Below, one piece after another: positions 25,393 through 35,533 of a stretch of DNA of 64,000 nt. How positions within the stretch are numbered: position 1 is the stretch's first letter; each line of letters begins with the position of its first letter. The stretch spans positions 1,364,001-1,428,000 of the forward strand of contig NZ_CP045245.1 of NCBI RefSeq assembly GCF_009720485.1, read 5' to 3'. Under the pieces are notes generated by a model that was not told where the DNA came from, ran no database searches, and saw nothing but the letters and a program-made list of their open reading frames with translations. This stretch comes from Cellulomonas sp. JZ18 (lineage in GTDB: Bacteria > Actinomycetota > Actinomycetes > Actinomycetales > Cellulomonadaceae). A program made the translations under genes and the position numbers.

Positions 25393-26333
25393 TCATCGCT
25401 CGACGACGTTGCGCAGCGGCTCCCCGGCGACCCAGCGCGCGGCGTTGTCGGCGACCAGGTCCGCCCAGCCCACGGGCCGGCCGCCCGCGGCGTGCGGGCT
25501 GACCAGGACGCGGGGGTGGTCCCACAGCGGGGAGTCCGCCGGGAGCGGCTCGGTGGCGAACACGTCGAGCGCGGCGCCGCCGAGCCCGTCCGCCAGGGCG
25601 GCGAGCAGCGCGTCCTCGTCCAGGGTGCTGCCCCGGCCGGCGTTCACGACCCAGGCGCCGGGGGGAGCAGGGCGAGGACCCGGGCGTCGATCGCGTGCCG
25701 CGTCGCCGGCAGGTCCGGCAGCAGCCCGACGAGCACGTCCGTGCCGGGCAGCACCGCGGGCAGGTCGTCCGCGGTGACGACGCGCGTCCCGTTGCGCTCG
25801 CCGGCCGTGCGCGCCACGCCCGTGACCTCGGCGCCGAGGGCCCGCAGCACCGGGGCCAGCCGCGCCGCGATCGAGCCGAAGCCCCACACGGTGACGTGCG
25901 CCCCGAGCAGGGTGCGCACCTCGCCCGCCGGGTGCAGCGGCTGCAGCCCGCCGAGCTCGCCCGCCCAGCGGTGCTCCTGCTGCGCCCGCACGAGGTCGGG
26001 CACGCGCCGCAGGCCTGCCAGGACGAGCGCGAGGACGTGCTCGGTGACGGTCGCGTCGTGCAGCCCGCGGCCCGAGGTCACGACCGCGTCGTCGGGGAAG
26101 CCCGCGGCCAGGACGGCGTCCGGCCCGGCCATGAGCGTCTGCACCCAGCGCACGCGCCGCGCGGCGGCGGCGAGCTCGTGGAGCCGGTGACGCGGGTTGC
26201 CCCACACGACCAGCGCCTGCGCGTCCGCCGCCTCGGGCGGAGCAGGCGCGTCGACGTCGTACCGGACGGCGCGCAGGCCCTCCGGCAGGCGCGGCGCGCC
26301 GTCGACCGACGTGGGCAGCAGGATCGTCCTCAT
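25393..26333 (-). CDS. D-2-hydroxyacid dehydrogenase, one frameshift
   Basis: A NAD-binding oxidoreductase of the D-isomer 2-hydroxyacid family, about 313 residues once repaired. The Rossmann motif is TVWGFGSIAARLAPVLRALG; the catalytic Arg lies in NAGRGSTLDEDALLAAL, Glu in DVFATEPLP and His in VLVSPHAAGG. The frame breaks in the run of six G (plus strand) at 25660-25665: a seventh base restores LLPPGAWVVNAGRG. The substrate is not deducible. The minus-strand ATG at 26333 shares the sequence CATG with a plus-strand ATG upstream of the response regulator. Confidence 0.85.
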
Positions 26334-26340
26334 GGCTCGA

Positions 26341-26346
26341 TACGAT
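26341..26346 (+). promoter_or_regulatory. -10 of the DevR-like regulator
   Basis: TACGAT ends exactly 7 bases before GTG 26353, supporting a leaderless transcript and this start over ATG 26332, which lies upstream of the -10. Confidence 0.45.
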
Positions 26347-26352
26347 GCCACC

Positions 26353-27042
26353 GTGCCCGCGACCAGCCACTCGACGCAGCCCTCGCCGGGGACGCGCCAG
26401 GCCCCCGTGTCCGTGATGATCGTCGACGACCACGAGGTCGTGCGGCGGGGGATCGCGGAGGTCGTGGAGCGCACCGACGGCATGACCGTCGTGGCCGAGG
26501 CGGGCTCGGTGGCCGACGGCGTGCGGCGCGCCTCGCTCGTGCGGCCCCAGGTGCTGCTCGTCGACCTGCAGCTGCCGGACGGCACGGGCATCGACCTCAT
26601 CACGGCGCTGCGCGAGCAGCTGCCGACCGCGCGGGCGATCGTGCTGACGTCGTTCGACGACGACGACGCGCTGGCGGCGGCGCTCGAGGCGGGCGCCGTC
26701 GCGTACCTGCTCAAGAGCGTGCGCGGCGCGGAGATCACGGACGTCATCCGCGCGGTCGCCGCGGGCCGCACGCTGCTCGACGAGCGCACGGTGGCGCGCC
26801 GCCGCGCGGGTCACGAGGACCCGACCGAGGGCCTGACCCCCAGCGAGCTGCGCGTGCTGGACCTCATCGGCGAGGGGTTGTCGAACCGCGAGATCGCCGA
26901 GCGCCTGGGCGTGGCGGAGAAGACCGTGAAGAACCACATCACGTCGCTGCTGTCGAAGATGGGCCTGCAGCGGCGCACGCAGGTCGCCGCGTGGGTGGCC
27001 TCGCGCAAGCACGCGGGCTGGCGGTCCGAGCCCGGGCACTGA
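26353..27042 (+). CDS. NarL/DevR-family response regulator
   Basis: A 229-residue regulator with an N-terminal receiver (VMIVDDHEVVRRGIAEVVER; phosphoacceptor Asp in LLVDLQLPDGTGI; Thr/Ser at LTSFDD and Lys in YLLKSV) and a C-terminal LuxR-type helix-turn-helix (LTPSELRVLDLIGEGLSN, EIAERLGVAEKTVKNHITSL). It resembles DevR/DosR of mycobacteria. Its convergent neighbour is a DevS-like kinase 71 bases away, so they probably form a pair. An upstream ATG at 26332 would add seven residues. A matching binding site is seen at the cydA promoter. Confidence 0.9.
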   Translation: MPATSHSTQPSPGTRQAPVSVMIVDDHEVVRRGIAEVVERTDGMTVVAEAGSVADGVRRASLVRPQVLLVDLQLPDGTGIDLITALREQLPTARAIVLTSFDDDDALAAALEAGAVAYLLKSVRGAEITDVIRAVAAGRTLLDERTVARRRAGHEDPTEGLTPSELRVLDLIGEGLSNREIAERLGVAEKTVKNHITSLLSKMGLQRRTQVAAWVASRKHAGWRSEPGH

Positions 27043-27113
27043 CCGCCCGAGCGAGGGCACCGCCGCCCGAGCCCGGGCACCGACGTCCGCGCGCCGGGCC
27101 GTCAGGCGAGCCG

Positions 27114-28886
27114 TCAGGCGAGCGGCACCTGCCAGGTCAGCAGCGCACCGCGCCCGCTCGGCGCGGCACCGAGGGTGAACGTGCCGCCGTGGCGCCGCGC
27201 CCGCGAGGCGAGGTTTCCCGTGCCGGAGCTGCGGTCGCGGACCGCGGGCAGACCGGCGCCGTCGTCCTCGACCTCCACCTCGACCGACCCGGTCGGGCCG
27301 CGCCCGCGCACGGCGACGCGCACCGCGACGGAGGACGCGTGGGCGTGCCGGGCGGCGTTCGCCAGCCCCTCGCGCACCACCGCCACGACGTCGTCCGTGA
27401 GGTCGGCGTCCAGCCGCTCGTCGAGCAGGTCCTCCGCCTCCCCGTCGCCGGGCGTCAGCGACGCGCCGTCGAGCGTGAGGACGAGCGACGGGGCGAAGCC
27501 CAGACCGGTGCGCGCGAGCGACGCCTCGCGCCGCAGCCGCTCGACGAGACCCGTCGCCGCGTCGGGGTCGCGCAGCGCGTGCACGATCTGACGGATCTGG
27601 CGCACGGAGCTGTCGACGTTGTCGAGCGCCGCCTCCACGATGTCCGTCAGCTCGGTCGCGTCGACGCCGCGCGCCGCGCGCCGGCGCACCGTCTCCAGCT
27701 GCATGCCCGTCGCGAACAGCTGCTGGATCGCCAGGTCGTGCAGGTCGCGCGCGATCCGCTCGCGCTCGTCGAGCAGGGCGGCGACGTCCTGCGCGTGCCG
27801 CGCCTCGGCCAGCACGTACGCGAGGGCGGCCTGCGACGCGAAGGACTCCGCCGTGGCCAGGTCGCTCTCGTCGAACGGGGTCGAGCCGATGCGGCGCAGC
27901 AGCACGAGCACGCCGACGCCGCGGCCGGAGGACTGCAGCGGCGCGTACATGGCGGGGCCGAACGCGCGCATCTGCTCGACCTTCACCGTGCGCGAGGCGC
28001 TCAGGGACGGCGTCAGCAGCCCCACGCCCTCCTCGAGGGCCGTCCACGCGCGGCCGTCGCGCGGCATCACGAGGCCGGTGAGCTCCTCGGCGCGGTAGCC
28101 GTCGGCGAGCTCGACGAACAGCTCGCCGCCGAGACCGGGCAGCGCGAGGGCGGCCGTGTCCGCGTTCGCGACCTGCCGCGCGGTGCGGGCGATGTGCGCG
28201 AGCGCGTCCTCCTCGTCCACGCCCTCGAGCAGCATCGTCGTGATGTCCTGCCCCGCGCGCAGCCAGTGCTCGCGGCGCTCGGCGTCGGCGTACAGCCGGG
28301 CGTTCGCGACCGCGACGCCGGCGGCCGCGGCGAGCGCGACGACCATCTCCTCGTCGTGCGCGTCGAAGGGGCCGCCCTCCTTCTCGGACAGGTACAGCTG
28401 CCCGTACACCTGCTCGCCGACCCGCACCGACGCCCCGAGGAACGAGCCCATCGGCGGGTGGTGCGCCGGCCAGCCGCGGAACGCGGGGTGCTGCGTGAGG
28501 TCGTCGAGGCGCAGCGCACCGTCCACGGGGATCTGCCCGAGCACGCCCTGCGCGTGCGGCGGGTGGTCGAGCATCCGGGCGACCGCGGTCGGCACACCGG
28601 TGTAGACGAACGTGGTGGACGCGCCGCCCTCGTCGAGGACGTTGATCGCGCCGTAGCGGGCCCGCGTGAGCTCCGCGCTCACCTGCACGAACCGGTCGAG
28701 CACCGCGGGCAGCTCGAGCTGGCCCGCGACGGCCAGGATCGCGTTGAGCAGGTCGGTCAGGGCGTCGCCGGTCAGGGGCGAGGGCACCGGCTCGACCTCG
28801 ACCAGCTCGCCGCCCGCGAAGGGGGCCGCGGGGGGCGCGTCCCGGCCGGGCGCGTCCCGGGGCGGCTCGACGTGCCGCGCGCTCAC
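27114..28886 (-). CDS. DevS/DosT-like GAF-GAF sensor histidine kinase
   Basis: A 590-residue soluble kinase without membrane segments. Two GAF domains (about residues 55-205 and 220-375) are followed by a HisKA_3 dimerisation/phosphoacceptor segment (ERERIARDLHDLAIQQLFA) and a HATPase_c domain (REGLANAARHAHASSVAVRV; GAGLPAVRDRSSGTGNL). GAF-1 contains HPAFRGWPAHHPPMGSFLG, matching the region that carries the haem-ligating His in mycobacterial DevS and DosT, so it may sense oxygen, NO or CO; haem binding is inferred. The GTG start overlaps the cydC stop (GTGA), so kinase synthesis is coupled to the cytochrome bd operon. Confidence 0.92.
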   Translation of the reverse strand: MSARHVEPPRDAPGRDAPPAAPFAGGELVEVEPVPSPLTGDALTDLLNAILAVAGQLELPAVLDRFVQVSAELTRARYGAINVLDEGGASTTFVYTGVPTAVARMLDHPPHAQGVLGQIPVDGALRLDDLTQHPAFRGWPAHHPPMGSFLGASVRVGEQVYGQLYLSEKEGGPFDAHDEEMVVALAAAAGVAVANARLYADAERREHWLRAGQDITTMLLEGVDEEDALAHIARTARQVANADTAALALPGLGGELFVELADGYRAEELTGLVMPRDGRAWTALEEGVGLLTPSLSASRTVKVEQMRAFGPAMYAPLQSSGRGVGVLVLLRRIGSTPFDESDLATAESFASQAALAYVLAEARHAQDVAALLDERERIARDLHDLAIQQLFATGMQLETVRRRAARGVDATELTDIVEAALDNVDSSVRQIRQIVHALRDPDAATGLVERLRREASLARTGLGFAPSLVLTLDGASLTPGDGEAEDLLDERLDADLTDDVVAVVREGLANAARHAHASSVAVRVAVRGRGPTGSVEVEVEDDGAGLPAVRDRSSGTGNLASRARRHGGTFTLGAAPSGRGALLTWQVPLA

Positions 28887-30775
28887 GCCACGCCCCCGGA
28901 CGCAGGGACGGGCTGGGTGGTCCGCTCGCTCCGCACCGCCTCACGGTAGCCGGGGACGTCCCGCAGGAGGCGCGCGTGCGTCCCGCGGGCCACCACGTGC
29001 CCGTCCTGCACCCACAGCACCTCGTCGGCGGCGGCGAGCGTCGCGAGCCGGTGCGTGACGACGAGCACGCCGCGCGCGTCCCCGCGGCGGGTCGGCGGCA
29101 GTTGCCACAGGCGGTCGAGCAGGGCGTCGGCGGTGGCGGTGTCGAGGTGCTCGGCCGGCTCGTCGACGAGCAGCAGCGGTGCGTCCGCGACGAGGGCGCG
29201 GGCGAGCAGCAGGCGCCGGCGCTCACCGCCCGAGACCGTGCGTCCGTCGGGCCCGAGGAGCGTGCCGAGCCCGTCCGGCAGGCCGGCGAGCCAGCCGCCC
29301 AGACCCGCCCGCTCGAGCGCGTCCGCCGCCTCGGCGGCGCTCACGTCGCCCCGGGCGACCCGCAGGTTCTCCAGCACGCTCGTGCCGAACAGGTGCGCGT
29401 CCTCGGTCGTGGCGACCGCGGCCGCGACGACACGGTCGCGGGGGAGCGCGGCGACGTCCTCGCCGTCGAGGCGGACGCTGCCCGCGACGGGCGGCAGGAG
29501 ACCGGCGAGCGTGAGCAGGAGCGTCGTCTTGCCGGCGCCGCTCGGCCCCGCCACGGCGACGCGCCGCCCCGGCGCGAGGACGACGTCCACCGCGGTGAGC
29601 GCCGGCGGACGCCCGGGCCAGCCGCACGTCAGGTCCGTGGCGCGCAGCACCGGACCCGCGTCGGCGGTTTCGGCGTCCGCGGTGGTGCGCCCGGTCCGCG
29701 GTGTCGCCGCGGCACCGCCCGACGGGCCAGGGTCCGGACCGGCCGCGTCGAGGAGCGCCAGGACGCGGGCCGCGGCCGCGCGCGAGCGCTGCACCTGGAC
29801 CGCGGCGGCCGGCAGCACCGACGTCGCCTCGAAGGCCGCGAGCGGGGTCAGCACGACGACCGCCAGCTCGACCGGCGCGAGCAGGCCCGCGCCCACCGCC
29901 GGGACGCCGGTGACGAGCGCGGCCACCACGGCGAGACCGACCGCGAGCTGCCCGAGGGCGGCGCCCAGCGCGGCGGGTCGCGCCCCGGCGTCCGCCGCCG
30001 CGGCGAGCCGGTGGTCCGCGTCGCGCAGGGCGCCCAGCTCGCGGTCCAGCCGCCCCGCCACCGTCAGCGGGCCGGCGTCCTCCAGCACGCCGAGCACGGT
30101 GGCCGTCATGTCGGCCCGCGCCCGCACCCCGCGCTCCTCGGCGCGGCGTGCGCCGGTGGCCGTCGCCCACGGCGCGACGACGCCCGCGAGGACGAGGCAC
30201 ACGGCGAGCGTGATCCCGGCCGGCGGCCAGAACAGCGCCATCGCGGCGCTGGCGCCGACGCCGAGCACGGCCGCGACCGCCGCGGGCAGCAGCCCGCGGA
30301 CCACGACGTCGCCGACGGCGTCGACGTCCGCGCCGACGCGCGCGAGCAGGTCCCCGCGGCGCACCGCGAGGACCGCCTGCGGCCGTCCGGCCGCCAGTCG
30401 CGCGTACAGGGTCGTGCGCAGCGCGACCATGCCCCGCAGCGCGACGTCGTGCGACACCAGGCGCTCCAGGTAGCGCAGCAGCCCCCGCCCGATGCCGAAC
30501 GTCCGCACGGCCACCGTCGCGACCGACAGCGTGAGCACGGGCGGCATCTGCGACGCGCGCGCGATGAGCCACGCGGAGACGGCGGCCAGCGCGACCGCGC
30601 ACCCGAGGGCGAGGGTCCCGAGCAGCACGGCGAGCGCCACGCGGCGCGCGTCGACGTCCAGCAGCCGCACGGCGCGGCGCAGCGTGCCGCGTGGCGGCCG
30701 GGTCGCGGTGCCGGCGCGCGCGGGCGGGGTGCCGGGCCCCCGGCCCCGCGCCGACGCCGCCGGGTGCGCGCTCAC
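28883..30775 (-). CDS. cydC: ABC transporter CydC, cytochrome bd assembly
   Basis: A 630-residue half-transporter with an N-terminal six-helix membrane domain (about residues 40-330; LLDVDARRVALAVLLGTLAL onward) and a C-terminal ATPase: VAGPSGAGKTTLLLTLAGLL, signature VSGGERRRLLLARALV and LLLVDEPAEHLD. CydDC exports thiols/haem-related compounds needed to mature cytochrome bd. The GTG at 30775 overlaps the cydD stop; its own stop overlaps the kinase start. The long open frame further upstream is a shadow within cydD. Confidence 0.93.
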   Translation of the reverse strand: MSAHPAASARGRGPGTPPARAGTATRPPRGTLRRAVRLLDVDARRVALAVLLGTLALGCAVALAAVSAWLIARASQMPPVLTLSVATVAVRTFGIGRGLLRYLERLVSHDVALRGMVALRTTLYARLAAGRPQAVLAVRRGDLLARVGADVDAVGDVVVRGLLPAAVAAVLGVGASAAMALFWPPAGITLAVCLVLAGVVAPWATATGARRAEERGVRARADMTATVLGVLEDAGPLTVAGRLDRELGALRDADHRLAAAADAGARPAALGAALGQLAVGLAVVAALVTGVPAVGAGLLAPVELAVVVLTPLAAFEATSVLPAAAVQVQRSRAAAARVLALLDAAGPDPGPSGGAAATPRTGRTTADAETADAGPVLRATDLTCGWPGRPPALTAVDVVLAPGRRVAVAGPSGAGKTTLLLTLAGLLPPVAGSVRLDGEDVAALPRDRVVAAAVATTEDAHLFGTSVLENLRVARGDVSAAEAADALERAGLGGWLAGLPDGLGTLLGPDGRTVSGGERRRLLLARALVADAPLLLVDEPAEHLDTATADALLDRLWQLPPTRRGDARGVLVVTHRLATLAAADEVLWVQDGHVVARGTHARLLRDVPGYREAVRSERTTQPVPASGGVA

Positions 30776-32436
30776 GCCGCCCCCGCCGGGACCGCTGCGG
30801 GCGAGGGCGCCACGGTGACGACGTCGTCGGCGCGCGCCACGAGGGCCGGGCGGTGGGCCACGAGCAGCACCGCGCAGCCGCGTGCACGCAGCGCGTCGAC
30901 GGTGTCGAGGACGACCCGCTCGCCGGCCGCGTCGAGGTGCGCTGTCGGCTCGTCGAGCACGACGACGGGGGTCGGGCGCAGCAGCGCGCGCGTGAGCGCC
31001 AGGCGCTGCCGCTGGCCGACGCTGAGCCCGCTGCCGCCCGCACCGAGCACCGTGCCCCAGCCGTCCGGCAGGCCCGCCACGACCGCGTCGAGGCCGGTGC
31101 GGGCCGCCGCCCGGTCGCGCTCGGCGGGGGCGGGCGACCCGAGCAGCGCGTCGAGGGTGCCGGGCTCGAGCACCGGGCGCTGCGGCAGCCAGGTGACCTG
31201 CCGCCGGTAGCTGCCGGGGTCCACGTCGGCCACGTCCACGGCCGCGCCGTCGGCGCCGACGAGCCGCACGGTCCCGGCGTCGGCGGGCAGCAGCCCCAGC
31301 AGCGCCTCGACCGTCGTCGTCTTGCCCGCGCCCGACGGCCCGACCAGGGCGACGGCACGCCCCGGCCGCAGGTCCAGGTCGACGTGCCGCGGCGCCCAGC
31401 CGCCGCGGGTGCGCACGCCGAGCCCGCGCACCTCGACCCGGCCGCGCGCGAGGTCCGGGGCCGGGCGCGTGCCCGGCTCGGGCAGCGGTGCGTCGAGGAC
31501 GGCGAACGCGCGCTCGGCGGCGGCCACGCCGTCGGTCGACGCGTGGAACTGCGCGCCGACCTGCCGCAGCGGCGCGTACACCTCGGGGGCGAGCACCAGC
31601 ACGGCGAGGCCGGTCACGAGGTCCATCCCGCCGTACACGAGCCGCAGGCCGACGCCGACGGCGACGACCGCGACGGACAGCGTCGTGAGCAGCTCCAGGA
31701 CCATGCCCGACAGGAACGCGATGCGCAGCGTGCCCGTGGTGGCCCGTCGGTGCGCGTCGCCCAGGGCCCGGACCCGCACCTCGGGGCCGCGCTCGCGGCC
31801 GAACGCCCGCAGCGTCGGCAGCCCGGCGAGCAGGTCGAGCACCTGGGAGCCCAGGCGCTCCATGGTCGCCAGGCCGCGGGCGGACCGGCCCTGCGTCATG
31901 ACGCCGACGAGCCACATGAACACCGGCACGAGCGGCAGCGTCCCGAGCAGCACCGCGAACGAGACCAGGTCCAGCCCGAGCACGACGAGCAGCGTCGCGG
32001 GAGTGAGGGTCGCCGCGAGGACGAGCTGCGGCAGGTACCGGACGAAGTACGGCTCGAGCGCCTCGAGGCCCCGCGTCGCGAGCGTGGCGAGCGCCGCGCC
32101 GTCCTCGCCCGTGCGCCGCGGTGCGCCGGCGGCGGCGTGCACGACCACGCGCTCGCGCAGCTCACCGACGGCGCGCGTCGCGGCCCGGTGCGCGTACCGC
32201 TCCTGCACGCCCGCGACGAGCGTGCGCGCCACGACGACGGCGAGCAGGCCGCCGACGAGCGGCGCGACGTCCGGCAGCGACGCGCCGTCCGCGACCGCCG
32301 AGCCCAGCGCGTGCGCCAGCAGCAGCGCCTGCGCCACCACGAGGGCGCCGGTCACCAGCCCCAGGGCGACGGTCAGGGCGAGGTAGCCGCGGGCCGAGCG
32401 CGCGTACCGCAGCAGGCGGGGGTCGAGCGGCTTCAC
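30772..32436 (-). CDS. cydD: ABC transporter CydD, cytochrome bd assembly
   Basis: A 554-residue half-transporter, partner of CydC. Membrane domain at residues about 15-310 (LALTVALGLVTGALVVAQAL and others), ATPase with VGPSGAGKTTTVEALLGLL, signature LSVGQRQRLALTRALL and VVLDEPTAHLD. CydD and CydC form the heterodimer. The GTG start at 32436 is overlapped by the stop of a tiny upstream reading frame (see 32433-32489). Confidence 0.93.
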   Translation of the reverse strand: MKPLDPRLLRYARSARGYLALTVALGLVTGALVVAQALLLAHALGSAVADGASLPDVAPLVGGLLAVVVARTLVAGVQERYAHRAATRAVGELRERVVVHAAAGAPRRTGEDGAALATLATRGLEALEPYFVRYLPQLVLAATLTPATLLVVLGLDLVSFAVLLGTLPLVPVFMWLVGVMTQGRSARGLATMERLGSQVLDLLAGLPTLRAFGRERGPEVRVRALGDAHRRATTGTLRIAFLSGMVLELLTTLSVAVVAVGVGLRLVYGGMDLVTGLAVLVLAPEVYAPLRQVGAQFHASTDGVAAAERAFAVLDAPLPEPGTRPAPDLARGRVEVRGLGVRTRGGWAPRHVDLDLRPGRAVALVGPSGAGKTTTVEALLGLLPADAGTVRLVGADGAAVDVADVDPGSYRRQVTWLPQRPVLEPGTLDALLGSPAPAERDRAAARTGLDAVVAGLPDGWGTVLGAGGSGLSVGQRQRLALTRALLRPTPVVVLDEPTAHLDAAGERVVLDTVDALRARGCAVLLVAHRPALVARADDVVTVAPSPAAVPAGAA

Positions 32437-32489
32437 GCCCGCCGGCCCGTCACGCCCGTCCTCATGCCCGTCCTCACGCCCGTCCTCAT
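32433..32489 (-). CDS. Possible 18-codon coupling ORF between cydB and cydD
   Basis: On the minus strand an ATG at 32489 opens the in-frame peptide MRTGVRTGMRTGVTGRRA. It is built from 12-base repeats, each holding a start codon and a GAGGAC ribosome-binding-like element. Its TGA overlaps the cydD GTG as GTGA. It could serve translational coupling from cydB to cydD; there is no homology evidence and it may be chance. Confidence 0.3.
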   Translation of the reverse strand: MRTGVRTGMRTGVTGRRA

Positions 32490-32500
32490 GCCCGCCTCAC
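32448..32500 (-). repeat. 12-bp tandem repeats between cydB and cydD
   Basis: Three perfect units of CGTCCTCAYGCC (plus strand; 32457-32492) with degenerate copies at both edges. They fill the whole gap between cydB and cydD. On the coding strand each unit provides GAGGAC and ATG or GTG. Confidence 0.75.
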
Positions 32501-33543
32501 GACCGCGACGTGACGCGGGCGAACGTCAGGCCCGTCGCCTCGGGGATGTGCTCGAGGGTCAGACGCTTGCGGAACACCCAGTACGTCCACCCCTGGTACA
32601 GCAGCACGAGCGGCGTGAGGACCGCCGCGACCCACGTCATGACGGTGAGCGTGTAGTCCGTCGACGACGCGTTCTCGACCGTGAGCGAGTTCGCGGGGTC
32701 GAGCGCCGGCATCACGGCCGGGAACATCGAGCCGAAGATCAGCACCACGGCCGCGACGATCGCGACGGCCGAGGCGGTGAACGCGATCCCCTCGCGGCGC
32801 ACGCGCGTCGCACGCACGACCGTCAGCAGGGCGACGGCGGCGACGAGGACCGCGGCCCACGTCCACGCCACCGAGTGGGCGACCTGCGCCCACAGCGCCC
32901 ACACCCCGGCGGCGACGAGGGTGACGACCGAGCTGCGCTCCGCGAACGTCGCGGCGCGCTCGCGCATCTCGCCGTCGACCTTCATCGCGAGGAACACCGC
33001 GCCGTGGGTGAGGAACAGGCTGAGCGTGACGAGCCCGCCGAGCAGGGCGAACGGCGACAGCAGCGCGAGGAGGCCGCCGACGTACTGGTGGTCGGCGTCC
33101 AGCTCCACGCCGCGCACGAGGTTCGCGAACGCGACCCCCCACAGCAGCGACGGCACGAACGAGCCCACCATGAGCGCGCGGTCCGCCCACGCGCGCCAGC
33201 GGTCGTCGTCGATCTTGCCGCGCCACTCGAACGCGACGACGCGCACGATGAGCGCGAGCAGGATGAGGAACAGCGGCAGGTAGAACCCGGAGAACAGCGT
33301 GGCGTACCACTCGGGGAACGCCGCGAACGTCGCGCCGCCGGCGGTGAGCAGCCACACCTCGTTCCCGTCCCACACCGGCCCCACCGTGTTGATGAGCAGG
33401 CGCCGCTCCTTCTCGCGCCGCGCACGGTCGCCGCGGGGGAGGACGGCCAGCAGCATGCCGACGCCAAAGTCGAAGCCCTCGAGCACGAGGTACCCGGTCC
33501 ACAGGACCGCGATGAGGAGGAACCAGATGACGGGGAGGTCCAT
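32497..33543 (-). CDS. cydB: Cytochrome bd ubiquinol/menaquinol oxidase subunit II
   Basis: A 348-residue polytopic membrane protein. It opens MDLPVIWFLLIAVLWTGYLV with LEGFDFGVGMLL, a hallmark of CydB, and contains INTVGPVWDGNEVWLLTAGG and about eight or nine hydrophobic segments. Together with CydA it forms the high-affinity quinol oxidase. It starts 11 bases after the cydA stop. Confidence 0.97.
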   Translation of the reverse strand: MDLPVIWFLLIAVLWTGYLVLEGFDFGVGMLLAVLPRGDRARREKERRLLINTVGPVWDGNEVWLLTAGGATFAAFPEWYATLFSGFYLPLFLILLALIVRVVAFEWRGKIDDDRWRAWADRALMVGSFVPSLLWGVAFANLVRGVELDADHQYVGGLLALLSPFALLGGLVTLSLFLTHGAVFLAMKVDGEMRERAATFAERSSVVTLVAAGVWALWAQVAHSVAWTWAAVLVAAVALLTVVRATRVRREGIAFTASAVAIVAAVVLIFGSMFPAVMPALDPANSLTVENASSTDYTLTVMTWVAAVLTPLVLLYQGWTYWVFRKRLTLEHIPEATGLTFARVTSRS

Positions 33544-33554
33544 GGCGGGTCTCC

Positions 33555-35081
33555 TCAGTAGGCGAAGGACAGCGGGCGGGCGGTGCCGTCGACGTCGTCG
33601 TCGGCGGGCGGGTTCGCGTCGGGGCTGGGGTCCCGCTCGGTGTCGGCGACGCCCTCGACGGCGTACCGCCGCATGAGCCGGAACCACACGACCATGAGCA
33701 CGCCGTACAGCAGCGTGAAGCCGACCATCGAGAAGACGACCATGCCCGGGCTGACGACCTCGCTGACGCCGCGCGCGGTGAGCAGCCACACGCCGTCGAC
33801 GCCCGAGGCGTCCGGGTTGGGGGCCACGACCCACGGCTGGCGGCCCATCTCGGTGAAGACCCAGCCGAAGGCGGACGCGAGGAAGGGGGTGGGGATCGCG
33901 GCGAGGCCCAGCGTCGCGAACCACGGCCGGTCGGTGACGGACCCCGAGCGCCGCAGCAGCCACAGCGCGGCGAGCGCGAGCGCCGCGGACCCGGCGCCGA
34001 GGCCGATCATGAGCCGGAAGGACCAGTACGTGACCGCGAGGTTCGGGTAGAAGCGGGTGTCCTCGTCGAAGGTCGGCGGGACGCCGTTCTCCTCCTCCCA
34101 GTCGCCGACCCACTGCGCGTAGTGCTCCTGCAGCTCCTCGACGCCGCGGATGGGGGCGCTGAAGTCGCCGGTCGCGAGGTAGGACGTGACGCCGGGCAGC
34201 TCGATGAGGTGCCGCACGCCCTCGCAGTCGTTCGTCAGGTCGCCGATCGCCAGGATCGAGAAGGGCGCCCCGTCCTGGGACTCGCACAGTCCCTCCGCGG
34301 CAGCCATCTTGGCGGGCTGCTGCTGGAACATGAGCTTGGCCTGCCAGTCGCCGCTGACGGCGACGCCGGCACCGGCGACCAGCATCGTGACGAGGCCGAG
34401 GACGACCGCGGGGCGGTAGACGTCCCGCGCCGTGTCCGCCTGGCCCGAGCGCACCAGCCGCACCATCCACCAGGCCGCGATGCCGGCGACGAACGTGCCG
34501 GCGGTGAGGAACGCCGCGGCGATGGTGTGCGGGAACGCGGCGAGCACCGTGGGGTTCGTCAGCACGGCGACGACGTCGGTCATCTCCGCGCGACCGGTCT
34601 CGAAGTTGAACGTCGTGCCCACGGGGTGCTGCATCCACGAGTTCGCGGCGAGGATGAAGAAGGCCGACAGGTTCGTCGCGATCGCGACCGCCCAGATGCA
34701 CGCGAGGTGGATCCGCTTCGGCAGCTTGTCCCAGCCGAAGATCCACAGGCCGAGGAACGTCGACTCGACGAAGAACGCGGCGAGCGCCTCCATCGCGAGC
34801 GGCGCGCCGAACACGTCGCCGACGAACCGCGAGTACTCGGACCAGTTCATGCCGAACTGGAACTCCTGCACGATGCCCGTCGCGACGCCGATCGCGAAGT
34901 TGATGAGCAGGAGCTTGCCGAAGAACTTGGTCAGGCGCAGCCACCGCTCGTTGCCGGTGCGCACCCACGCGGTCTGCATGATCGCGACGAGGGGCGACAG
35001 GCCGATCGTCAGCGGCACGAACACGAAGTGGTAGACGGTCGTGATGCCGAACTGCCACCGGGCCAGGTCGAGGGCGTCCAC
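33555..35081 (-). CDS. cydA: Cytochrome bd ubiquinol/menaquinol oxidase subunit I
   Basis: A 508-residue subunit carrying all haems. ALDLARWQFGITTVYHFVFV has the N-terminal His ligand (haem b595/d region), ANSWMQHPVG carries the b558 His, and several typical helices follow. The Q-loop region looks like the short form; the length agrees with that. The GTG at 35081 follows GGAGACC. It heads the cydABDC-kinase operon; its promoter region has a -10 TACGGT at 35152-35157 and a DosR-box-like palindrome just upstream of the poor -35. Confidence 0.97.
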   Translation of the reverse strand: MDALDLARWQFGITTVYHFVFVPLTIGLSPLVAIMQTAWVRTGNERWLRLTKFFGKLLLINFAIGVATGIVQEFQFGMNWSEYSRFVGDVFGAPLAMEALAAFFVESTFLGLWIFGWDKLPKRIHLACIWAVAIATNLSAFFILAANSWMQHPVGTTFNFETGRAEMTDVVAVLTNPTVLAAFPHTIAAAFLTAGTFVAGIAAWWMVRLVRSGQADTARDVYRPAVVLGLVTMLVAGAGVAVSGDWQAKLMFQQQPAKMAAAEGLCESQDGAPFSILAIGDLTNDCEGVRHLIELPGVTSYLATGDFSAPIRGVEELQEHYAQWVGDWEEENGVPPTFDEDTRFYPNLAVTYWSFRLMIGLGAGSAALALAALWLLRRSGSVTDRPWFATLGLAAIPTPFLASAFGWVFTEMGRQPWVVAPNPDASGVDGVWLLTARGVSEVVSPGMVVFSMVGFTLLYGVLMVVWFRLMRRYAVEGVADTERDPSPDANPPADDDVDGTARPLSFAY

Positions 35082-35151
35082 TGCGGTCTCCGACGGTGCG
35101 AGGAGGGCGGCTCGGGCAAGGCGAGCGGGGCGGGGTCGGCCGCCTGGCTCG

Positions 35152-35180
35152 ACCGTAGGAAGGGGGGTCCCGCGCCACGG
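35152..35180 (-). promoter_or_regulatory. cydA promoter
   Basis: Minus-strand -10 TACGGT (35152-35157) with a 17-base spacer to CCGTGG (35175-35180), a poor -35 that suggests an activator-dependent promoter. Predicted start near 35145, leader about 64 bases. Confidence 0.5.
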
Positions 35181-35194
35181 GGGACCAAGGTCCC
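35181..35194. promoter_or_regulatory. DosR/DevR-box-like palindrome at cydA
   Basis: GGGACCAAGGTCCC, a perfect palindrome. The mycobacterial DosR consensus core is GGGACTWWAGTCCC: 12 of 14 positions agree and the two changes are symmetric; the adjoining G on each side also fits. Its centre lies about 42.5 bp upstream of the predicted cydA start. Confidence 0.6.
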
Positions 35195-35533
35195 GAGTGC
35201 TGACACGACGTCGTCACGTCGGGGACGCGCCGCGGTGCGGGCGCAGCCCGGGCGTCGGCGCGTCGCTGTGCGATACTCGTCCCGGTCCTGGCGCCACACC
35301 GCCGGGGCCGACGGCCGCCGCACCGGCGGTCCGTGCAGCCTCACCGCCGCCCTCCTCGGCGCCGCTCCCACCCGGAGCCCCGAGACGGCCCGGCCGGCGA
35401 TGGCGCCGGACACCGTGCGGCCGCCGCGACCGACGACTTCCGTCGCCGTACCGGCAGACCCGGACGAGCGACGACGACCGCCCGGGGGCGCACGACGTGT
35501 GGACGGGGCCTCCGGTACACAGGAGCACCGCGC

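Follow-up and report, generated by a model that had tools for sequence, protein, structure and literature searches.

How is a cytochrome bd operon controlled when its last gene encodes a sensor kinase resembling the mycobacterial sensors of oxygen and nitric oxide (NO)? The question is raised by a 64,000 nucleotide window of the Cellulomonas sp. JZ18 genome, in which positions 35081 to 27114 of the minus strand carry cydA, cydB, cydD, cydC and then a gene for a soluble sensor kinase. The answer proposed here, which is regarded as probable, is that cydABDC is joined to the gene of a DevS-type haem kinase, and that a DevR-type regulator encoded convergently with this kinase activates the operon from a palindrome centred 42.5 bp before the predicted cydA start.

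The first-pass annotation of this DNA had described a cydA-cydB-cydD-cydC series ending in a GTGA overlap with a GAF-GAF-HisKA_3 kinase, an HHPPM motif in the GAF-1 domain of that kinase, a convergent DevR-like regulator, a palindrome at 35181–35194 and a minus-strand TACGGT at 35152–35157. All of these elements are present where they were placed. The cydA gene (33555–35081, GTG start) encodes cytochrome bd subunit I (Pfam PF01654, Cyt_bd_oxida_I, 1e-162), and cydB (32497–33543, ATG start) is an open frame assigned to subunit II by its place and by its similarity to cydB in 80 cydA loci (tblastn). Two ABC exporter subunits are encoded next, by cydD (30772–32436; NCBIfam TIGR02857, 550 bits for a cut-off of 435) and by cydC (28883–30775; TIGR02868, 576 bits for a cut-off of 329), and the stop codon of the latter lies in the overlap with the kinase gene (27114–28886), all on the minus strand.

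The kinase is organized as GAF, GAF, HisKA_3 and HATPase (Pfam), which is the architecture of the DevS/DosS type. Its GAF-1 domain (residues 58–193, encoded by 28308–28715 of the minus strand) matches the solved GAF-A chains of DosT (1e-33) and DosS (5e-33), the HHPPM motif corresponds to residues 142–146, and His143 (codon 28458–28460) and Tyr165 align with the proximal His149 and the distal Tyr171 of DosS. These two residues are invariant, both in the nine kinases aligned and in all 30 genus kinases examined. On the strength of such similarities, GAF-1 is predicted to be a haem domain of the DevS type, sensing low oxygen. General searches were less specific: a Foldseek search with the kinase, ordered by E-value, placed phytochromes and phosphodiesterases on top and DosT at rank 22; in the structure table for the whole kinase, rows for GAF-2 dominate and the absence of other families is uninformative; and neither the kinase nor the regulator reached the cut-off of a named NCBIfam model.

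The regulator (26353–27042, plus strand) carries a receiver (Response_reg) and a GerE domain (Pfam), and its closest solved structure is DevR (3c3w, 7e-51). According to the alignment with 3c3w it contains AEKTVKN, the DNA-recognition helix of DevR/DosR, which recurs in the regulators examined from Lentzea, Amycolatopsis and Nocardioides. It is the sole close DevR relative in the genome, with a self-score of 474 bits compared with 115 bits for the runner-up among 39 matches. Across the genus, 76 of the 81 genomes have a match at E 1e-60, one apiece, the five exceptions being G039, G042, G080 and two incomplete genomes, G053 and G071. No box was found in the 450 nt before the regulator gene, even when up to two mismatches were allowed. 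A predicted -10 element, TACGAT (26341–26346, plus strand), lies 6 nt before the GTG start and is present at the same place in 29 of the 30 genus loci examined, so that the message is likely to be leaderless; its promoter is probably constitutive.

The palindrome before cydA, GGGACCAAGGTCCC, occurs in this exact form only once in the genome (4.04 Mb), and its core is near-identical to the mycobacterial DosR consensus. If transcription of cydA starts at 35145, a position assumed to lie 7 nt beyond the predicted -10 element TACGGT, the centre of the box is 42.5 bp upstream. This placement, which the first-pass annotation had also proposed, is supported by comparison, since a TAnnnT begins 22–24 nt past the box in 64 of the 66 genus genomes that have it, a distance that fits a -42.5 site. 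In the window alone, sites of the box class show no excess over shuffled sequence, and it is relatives that provide the evidence that the box matters. The pattern GGGACCNNGGTCCC, at one mismatch, occurs 46 times in the genome compared with 14 times for the reversed pattern, and GGGACSWWSGTCCC occurs 427 times in the 81 genomes compared with 13, a control that ignores base-step content and was given little weight.

More telling are the promoters themselves. Of 78 genus genomes, 66 have a box with at most one mismatch no more than 300 nt from cydA (39 exact), whereas about 3.4 would be expected from letter-shuffled cydA upstream stretches; as a background, 786 tiles (300 nt each) taken from the kinase and regulator loci include 17 with such a site and none with an exact one. 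The count leaves out G034, with only the C-terminal end of cydA on its contig, and G053 and G064, with no cydA match, and retains G013, whose sole cydA match is distant (46 %). As for the kinase, it is encoded at most 9 kb from cydA in all 61 genomes in which both share one contig; the two genes are on separate contigs in 13 more, and five cydA-bearing genomes have no such kinase. Conservation in relatives of the palindrome and of the adjacent kinase, named by the first-pass annotation as the check on its proposal, is thus found for both. DevR/DosR regulators bind palindromes of the form GGGAC-N4-GTCCC, and the box co-occurs with the regulator and is rare in genomes without it: G039, G042 and G080 lack regulator, linked kinase and cydA box, their exact GGGACSWWSGTCCC counts being 0, 2 and 1 where the median in 71 other genomes is 5, and genomes without the regulator lack the usual -10 of the cydA promoter too.

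The best conserved parts of the genus cydA promoters are the box, a dyad immediately upstream of it, and the -10. This dyad (35200–35215, minus strand; column conservation in 42 non-redundant genus promoters), in its genus form GACGAC-N4-YGTCAG, is about as conserved as the -10, and the form present here, GACGAC-N4-TGTCAG, has a single exact match within the window. The gap from GAC to GTC in this dyad is 5 nt, which sets it apart from the boxes with their 4 nt. A paired-box arrangement at this cydA was set aside, since the genus columns show no conservation between the box and the -10; a box-like site with two mismatches lies at 35158–35171, and several named cydA loci have a second, weaker box 20–24 bp downstream of the first.

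Is the box confined to cyd? The first-pass annotation had seen the locus as a self-contained switch, and on this point it has to be revised, as the same box also stands before nrdD, in the JZ18 genome as well, and before orphan DevS-like kinase genes in relatives. One of the four exact occurrences of GGGACSWWSGTCCC in the JZ18 genome is about 130 nt before nrdD, which encodes the anaerobic ribonucleotide reductase (Pfam), and across the genus the 400 nt stretches upstream of nrdD contain the box in 53 of 59 cases, 37 of them exact. NrdD serves anaerobic growth and is sensitive to oxygen, its aerobic counterpart being class I ribonucleotide reductase; near the latter, a box within 1.5 kb was found in three of 30 cases, one exact (39 of 40 genomes matched, 30 with the locus, distance measured from the Pfam domain). 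The presence of the box at the gene of an oxygen-sensitive anaerobic enzyme gives independent support to a low-oxygen signal. For a second DevS-like kinase (L286, L294–L313), a box no farther than 150 nt away is found 14 times in 20, with 10 of the boxes exact; these 20 are the matches scoring 495 bits or more, weaker ones being omitted, and distance is counted from the start of the match and not from the start codon. Genomes with such a kinase have no second close DevR, so that the kinase is an orphan, and by analogy it could serve as a DosT-like second input. Neighbouring genes were read at 68 box loci, of which cyd, nrdD and the orphan kinases were followed further. By the same reading, genes that resemble those of a thiolase, phosphoketolase, alcohol dehydrogenase, membrane pyrophosphatase, geranylgeranyl reductase and TerC lie beside other boxes (L240, L282, L283, L217, L219, L231, L290, L012, L237, L279) and are possible further members. 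From the distribution of the box, cyd seems to be the centre of a low-oxygen regulon rather than an isolated switch.

Taken as a mechanism, the arrangement would work as follows. Upon loss of oxygen from the ferrous GAF-1 haem, or upon binding of NO or carbon monoxide (CO) to this haem, the kinase would phosphorylate the regulator, whose phosphorylated dimers would then occupy the box beside the -35 region and attract RNA polymerase. The result would be more oxidase and more kinase, that is, a positive loop. Since nrdD would be switched on by this regulator as well, the cell would gain an anaerobic supply of DNA precursors along with its high-affinity oxidase.

How far does this organization extend beyond the genus? 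Named cydA loci were taken as the best 80 among the matches listed, and 64 of them, with at least 9 kb downstream, entered the table of regulators and boxes, the other 16 being omitted for short contigs. The kinase-motif pattern misses true kinases such as the one in L022, and the table counts by regulator instead. A box, a kinase and a convergent regulator after cydC were found in further Micrococcales and neighbours, for instance Demequina and Bowdeniella, and also in Lentzea, Amycolatopsis anabasis and Prauserella. Box and regulator occur together in 13 of the 64 loci, the box only in 10, the regulator only in five and neither in 36 (Fisher p 0.0003, a value inflated by kinship, as Mycobacteria, Rhodococcus and Gordonia fill much of the last class). 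DevR-like regulators are found beside cyd in other arrangements in Amycolatopsis vancoresmycina (L079) and Nocardioides (L085, L091). Within Actinomyces, one linked kinase (L073) has lost the His and the locus has no box, and another (L084) has kept the His, with no box at one mismatch or less. In two mycobacterial cydA loci (L053 and L057, from M. stellerae and M. rhizamassiliense) a box-like site lies 94 bp before the gene, which is not the case in most of the mycobacterial loci examined.

A number of observations weigh against activation of cyd by the linked kinase and regulator. The cydA box is missing in 12 of the 78 genus genomes, and five of the genomes (G025, G038, G041, G043 and G074) have the linked pair and no cydA box at one mismatch or less. 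The kinase-regulator pair of these five is more diverged, and their cydA upstream stretches are similar to those of G039, G042 and G080, so that box loss in both sets may represent one event in one clade. A two-mismatch site precedes cydA in G047, G067 and G069, and the distant cydA of G013 has no site. To these must be added the named loci in which box (10) or regulator (five) occurs without the other nearby, and the linked kinases of Lentzea, Amycolatopsis anabasis, Prauserella and Dermabacter (L066, L068, L069, L070, L072), which have no haem GAF where box and regulator are kept: the linked kinases of these Pseudonocardiales and of Dermabacter align from residue 209 or later only, and PDB matches to the Lentzea kinase are limited to kinase-domain chains. 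Furthermore, the distal-channel position of DosS Glu87 and DosT Gly85 is occupied by Asn in the JZ18 kinase and in all 30 genus kinases examined, while some distant kinases have Gly, Ala or Ser there. Finally, a study of M. smegmatis places cydAB outside the 49-gene DevR regulon and states, with data not shown, that a devR mutant reportedly still induces cydA (PMC7739888).

Several of these points fit a different division of labour, namely that box and regulator do control cyd, with the linked kinase reading redox state, NO/CO or another GAF ligand and another kinase giving the oxygen signal. The Asn residue, the linked kinases devoid of a haem GAF and the presence in many relatives of another DevS-like kinase preceded by this box all speak for it; nevertheless, we hold it unlikely, as the proximal His and distal Tyr are retained by every genus kinase examined, and as the second match to the kinase in the JZ18 genome is weak, with no other DevS-like kinase among the matches listed. 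A site next to the -35 could by inference work in either direction, and the regulator could thus repress cyd in air, with low oxygen relieving the repression. This is highly improbable, given that the box and the usual -10 are both gone from the genomes that have no regulator, and that DevR of M. tuberculosis activates, with cooperative binding, from start-proximal sites overlapping the -35 (PMC3029386). It would be extremely improbable for another regulator of the NarL/LuxR type to own the box, or for the box to serve the RNase E/G gene that lies divergent from cydA on the other strand, leaving the neighbouring pair to control something else. The genome does hold 38 further, weaker matches to the regulator, the box does sit in the intergenic stretch shared with the RNase E/G gene, and ten named loci have the box with no DevR-like regulator in the locus; yet the distance between the regulator and its next-best match in bits, the -10 at a fixed distance on the cydA side and the boxes at nrdD and the orphan DevS-like kinases all speak against it.

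Elsewhere in the window, a gene read as D-2-hydroxyacid-dehydrogenase-like (25393–26333, minus strand) is broken across two frames near a G run, which reflects either a sequencing error or a pseudogene.

Regulation of cyd in response to respiration or haem has been described in other actinobacteria, through CRP in M. smegmatis (PMC7739888) and through HrrSA in Corynebacterium (PMC7337898). The regulators and sensors there are different ones, and neither operon is known to contain a DevS-type kinase. Among the papers listed in literature searches, which covered few subscription journals, no title or abstract opening describes DevR/DosR control of cyd or nrdD. Two further studies report that cyd genes of M. 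tuberculosis go up early in hypoxia (PMC8044303) and that growth in the presence of carbon monoxide is independent of DosR and dependent on cytochrome bd (PMC8125079). OsdK-OsdR of Streptomyces coelicolor is similar in its DevR-type regulator, related palindrome and overlapping regulon, and differs in its consensus, AGGGCCGATCGGCCCT; the word cydA is absent from the text of the OsdR paper (PMC5069765).

The closest likeness is to DosS/DosT-DosR (DevS-DevR) of Mycobacterium, with which the Cellulomonas pair shares the kinase architecture, the haem-ligand His, the regulator and a box next to the -35 (PMC3029386). The mycobacterial pair is known for a dormancy regulon, with universal stress proteins, hspX and tgs1 among its members, whereas here the kinase gene ends the cyd genes and the box precedes cydA and nrdD. 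A tentative and somewhat doubtful scenario is that DevS-DevR began as an oxygen switch, integrated into the cyd operon of several actinobacterial orders, for a high-affinity oxidase and for the anaerobic synthesis of DNA precursors; the dormancy regulon of the tubercle bacilli would then be derived, with the cyd target dropped, and some lineages would later have lost the haem GAF but kept regulator, box and target. The regulation proposed here for Cellulomonas would tie a pair that senses oxygen and NO, and that is familiar chiefly from mycobacterial dormancy, to the direct control of a terminal oxidase and nrdD in ordinary environmental bacteria, offering a testable case of one regulator rewired between lineages and a harmless model for DevS-type signalling. 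Compared with the mycobacterial pair, DevS-DevR at cyd represents a known system wired in another way.
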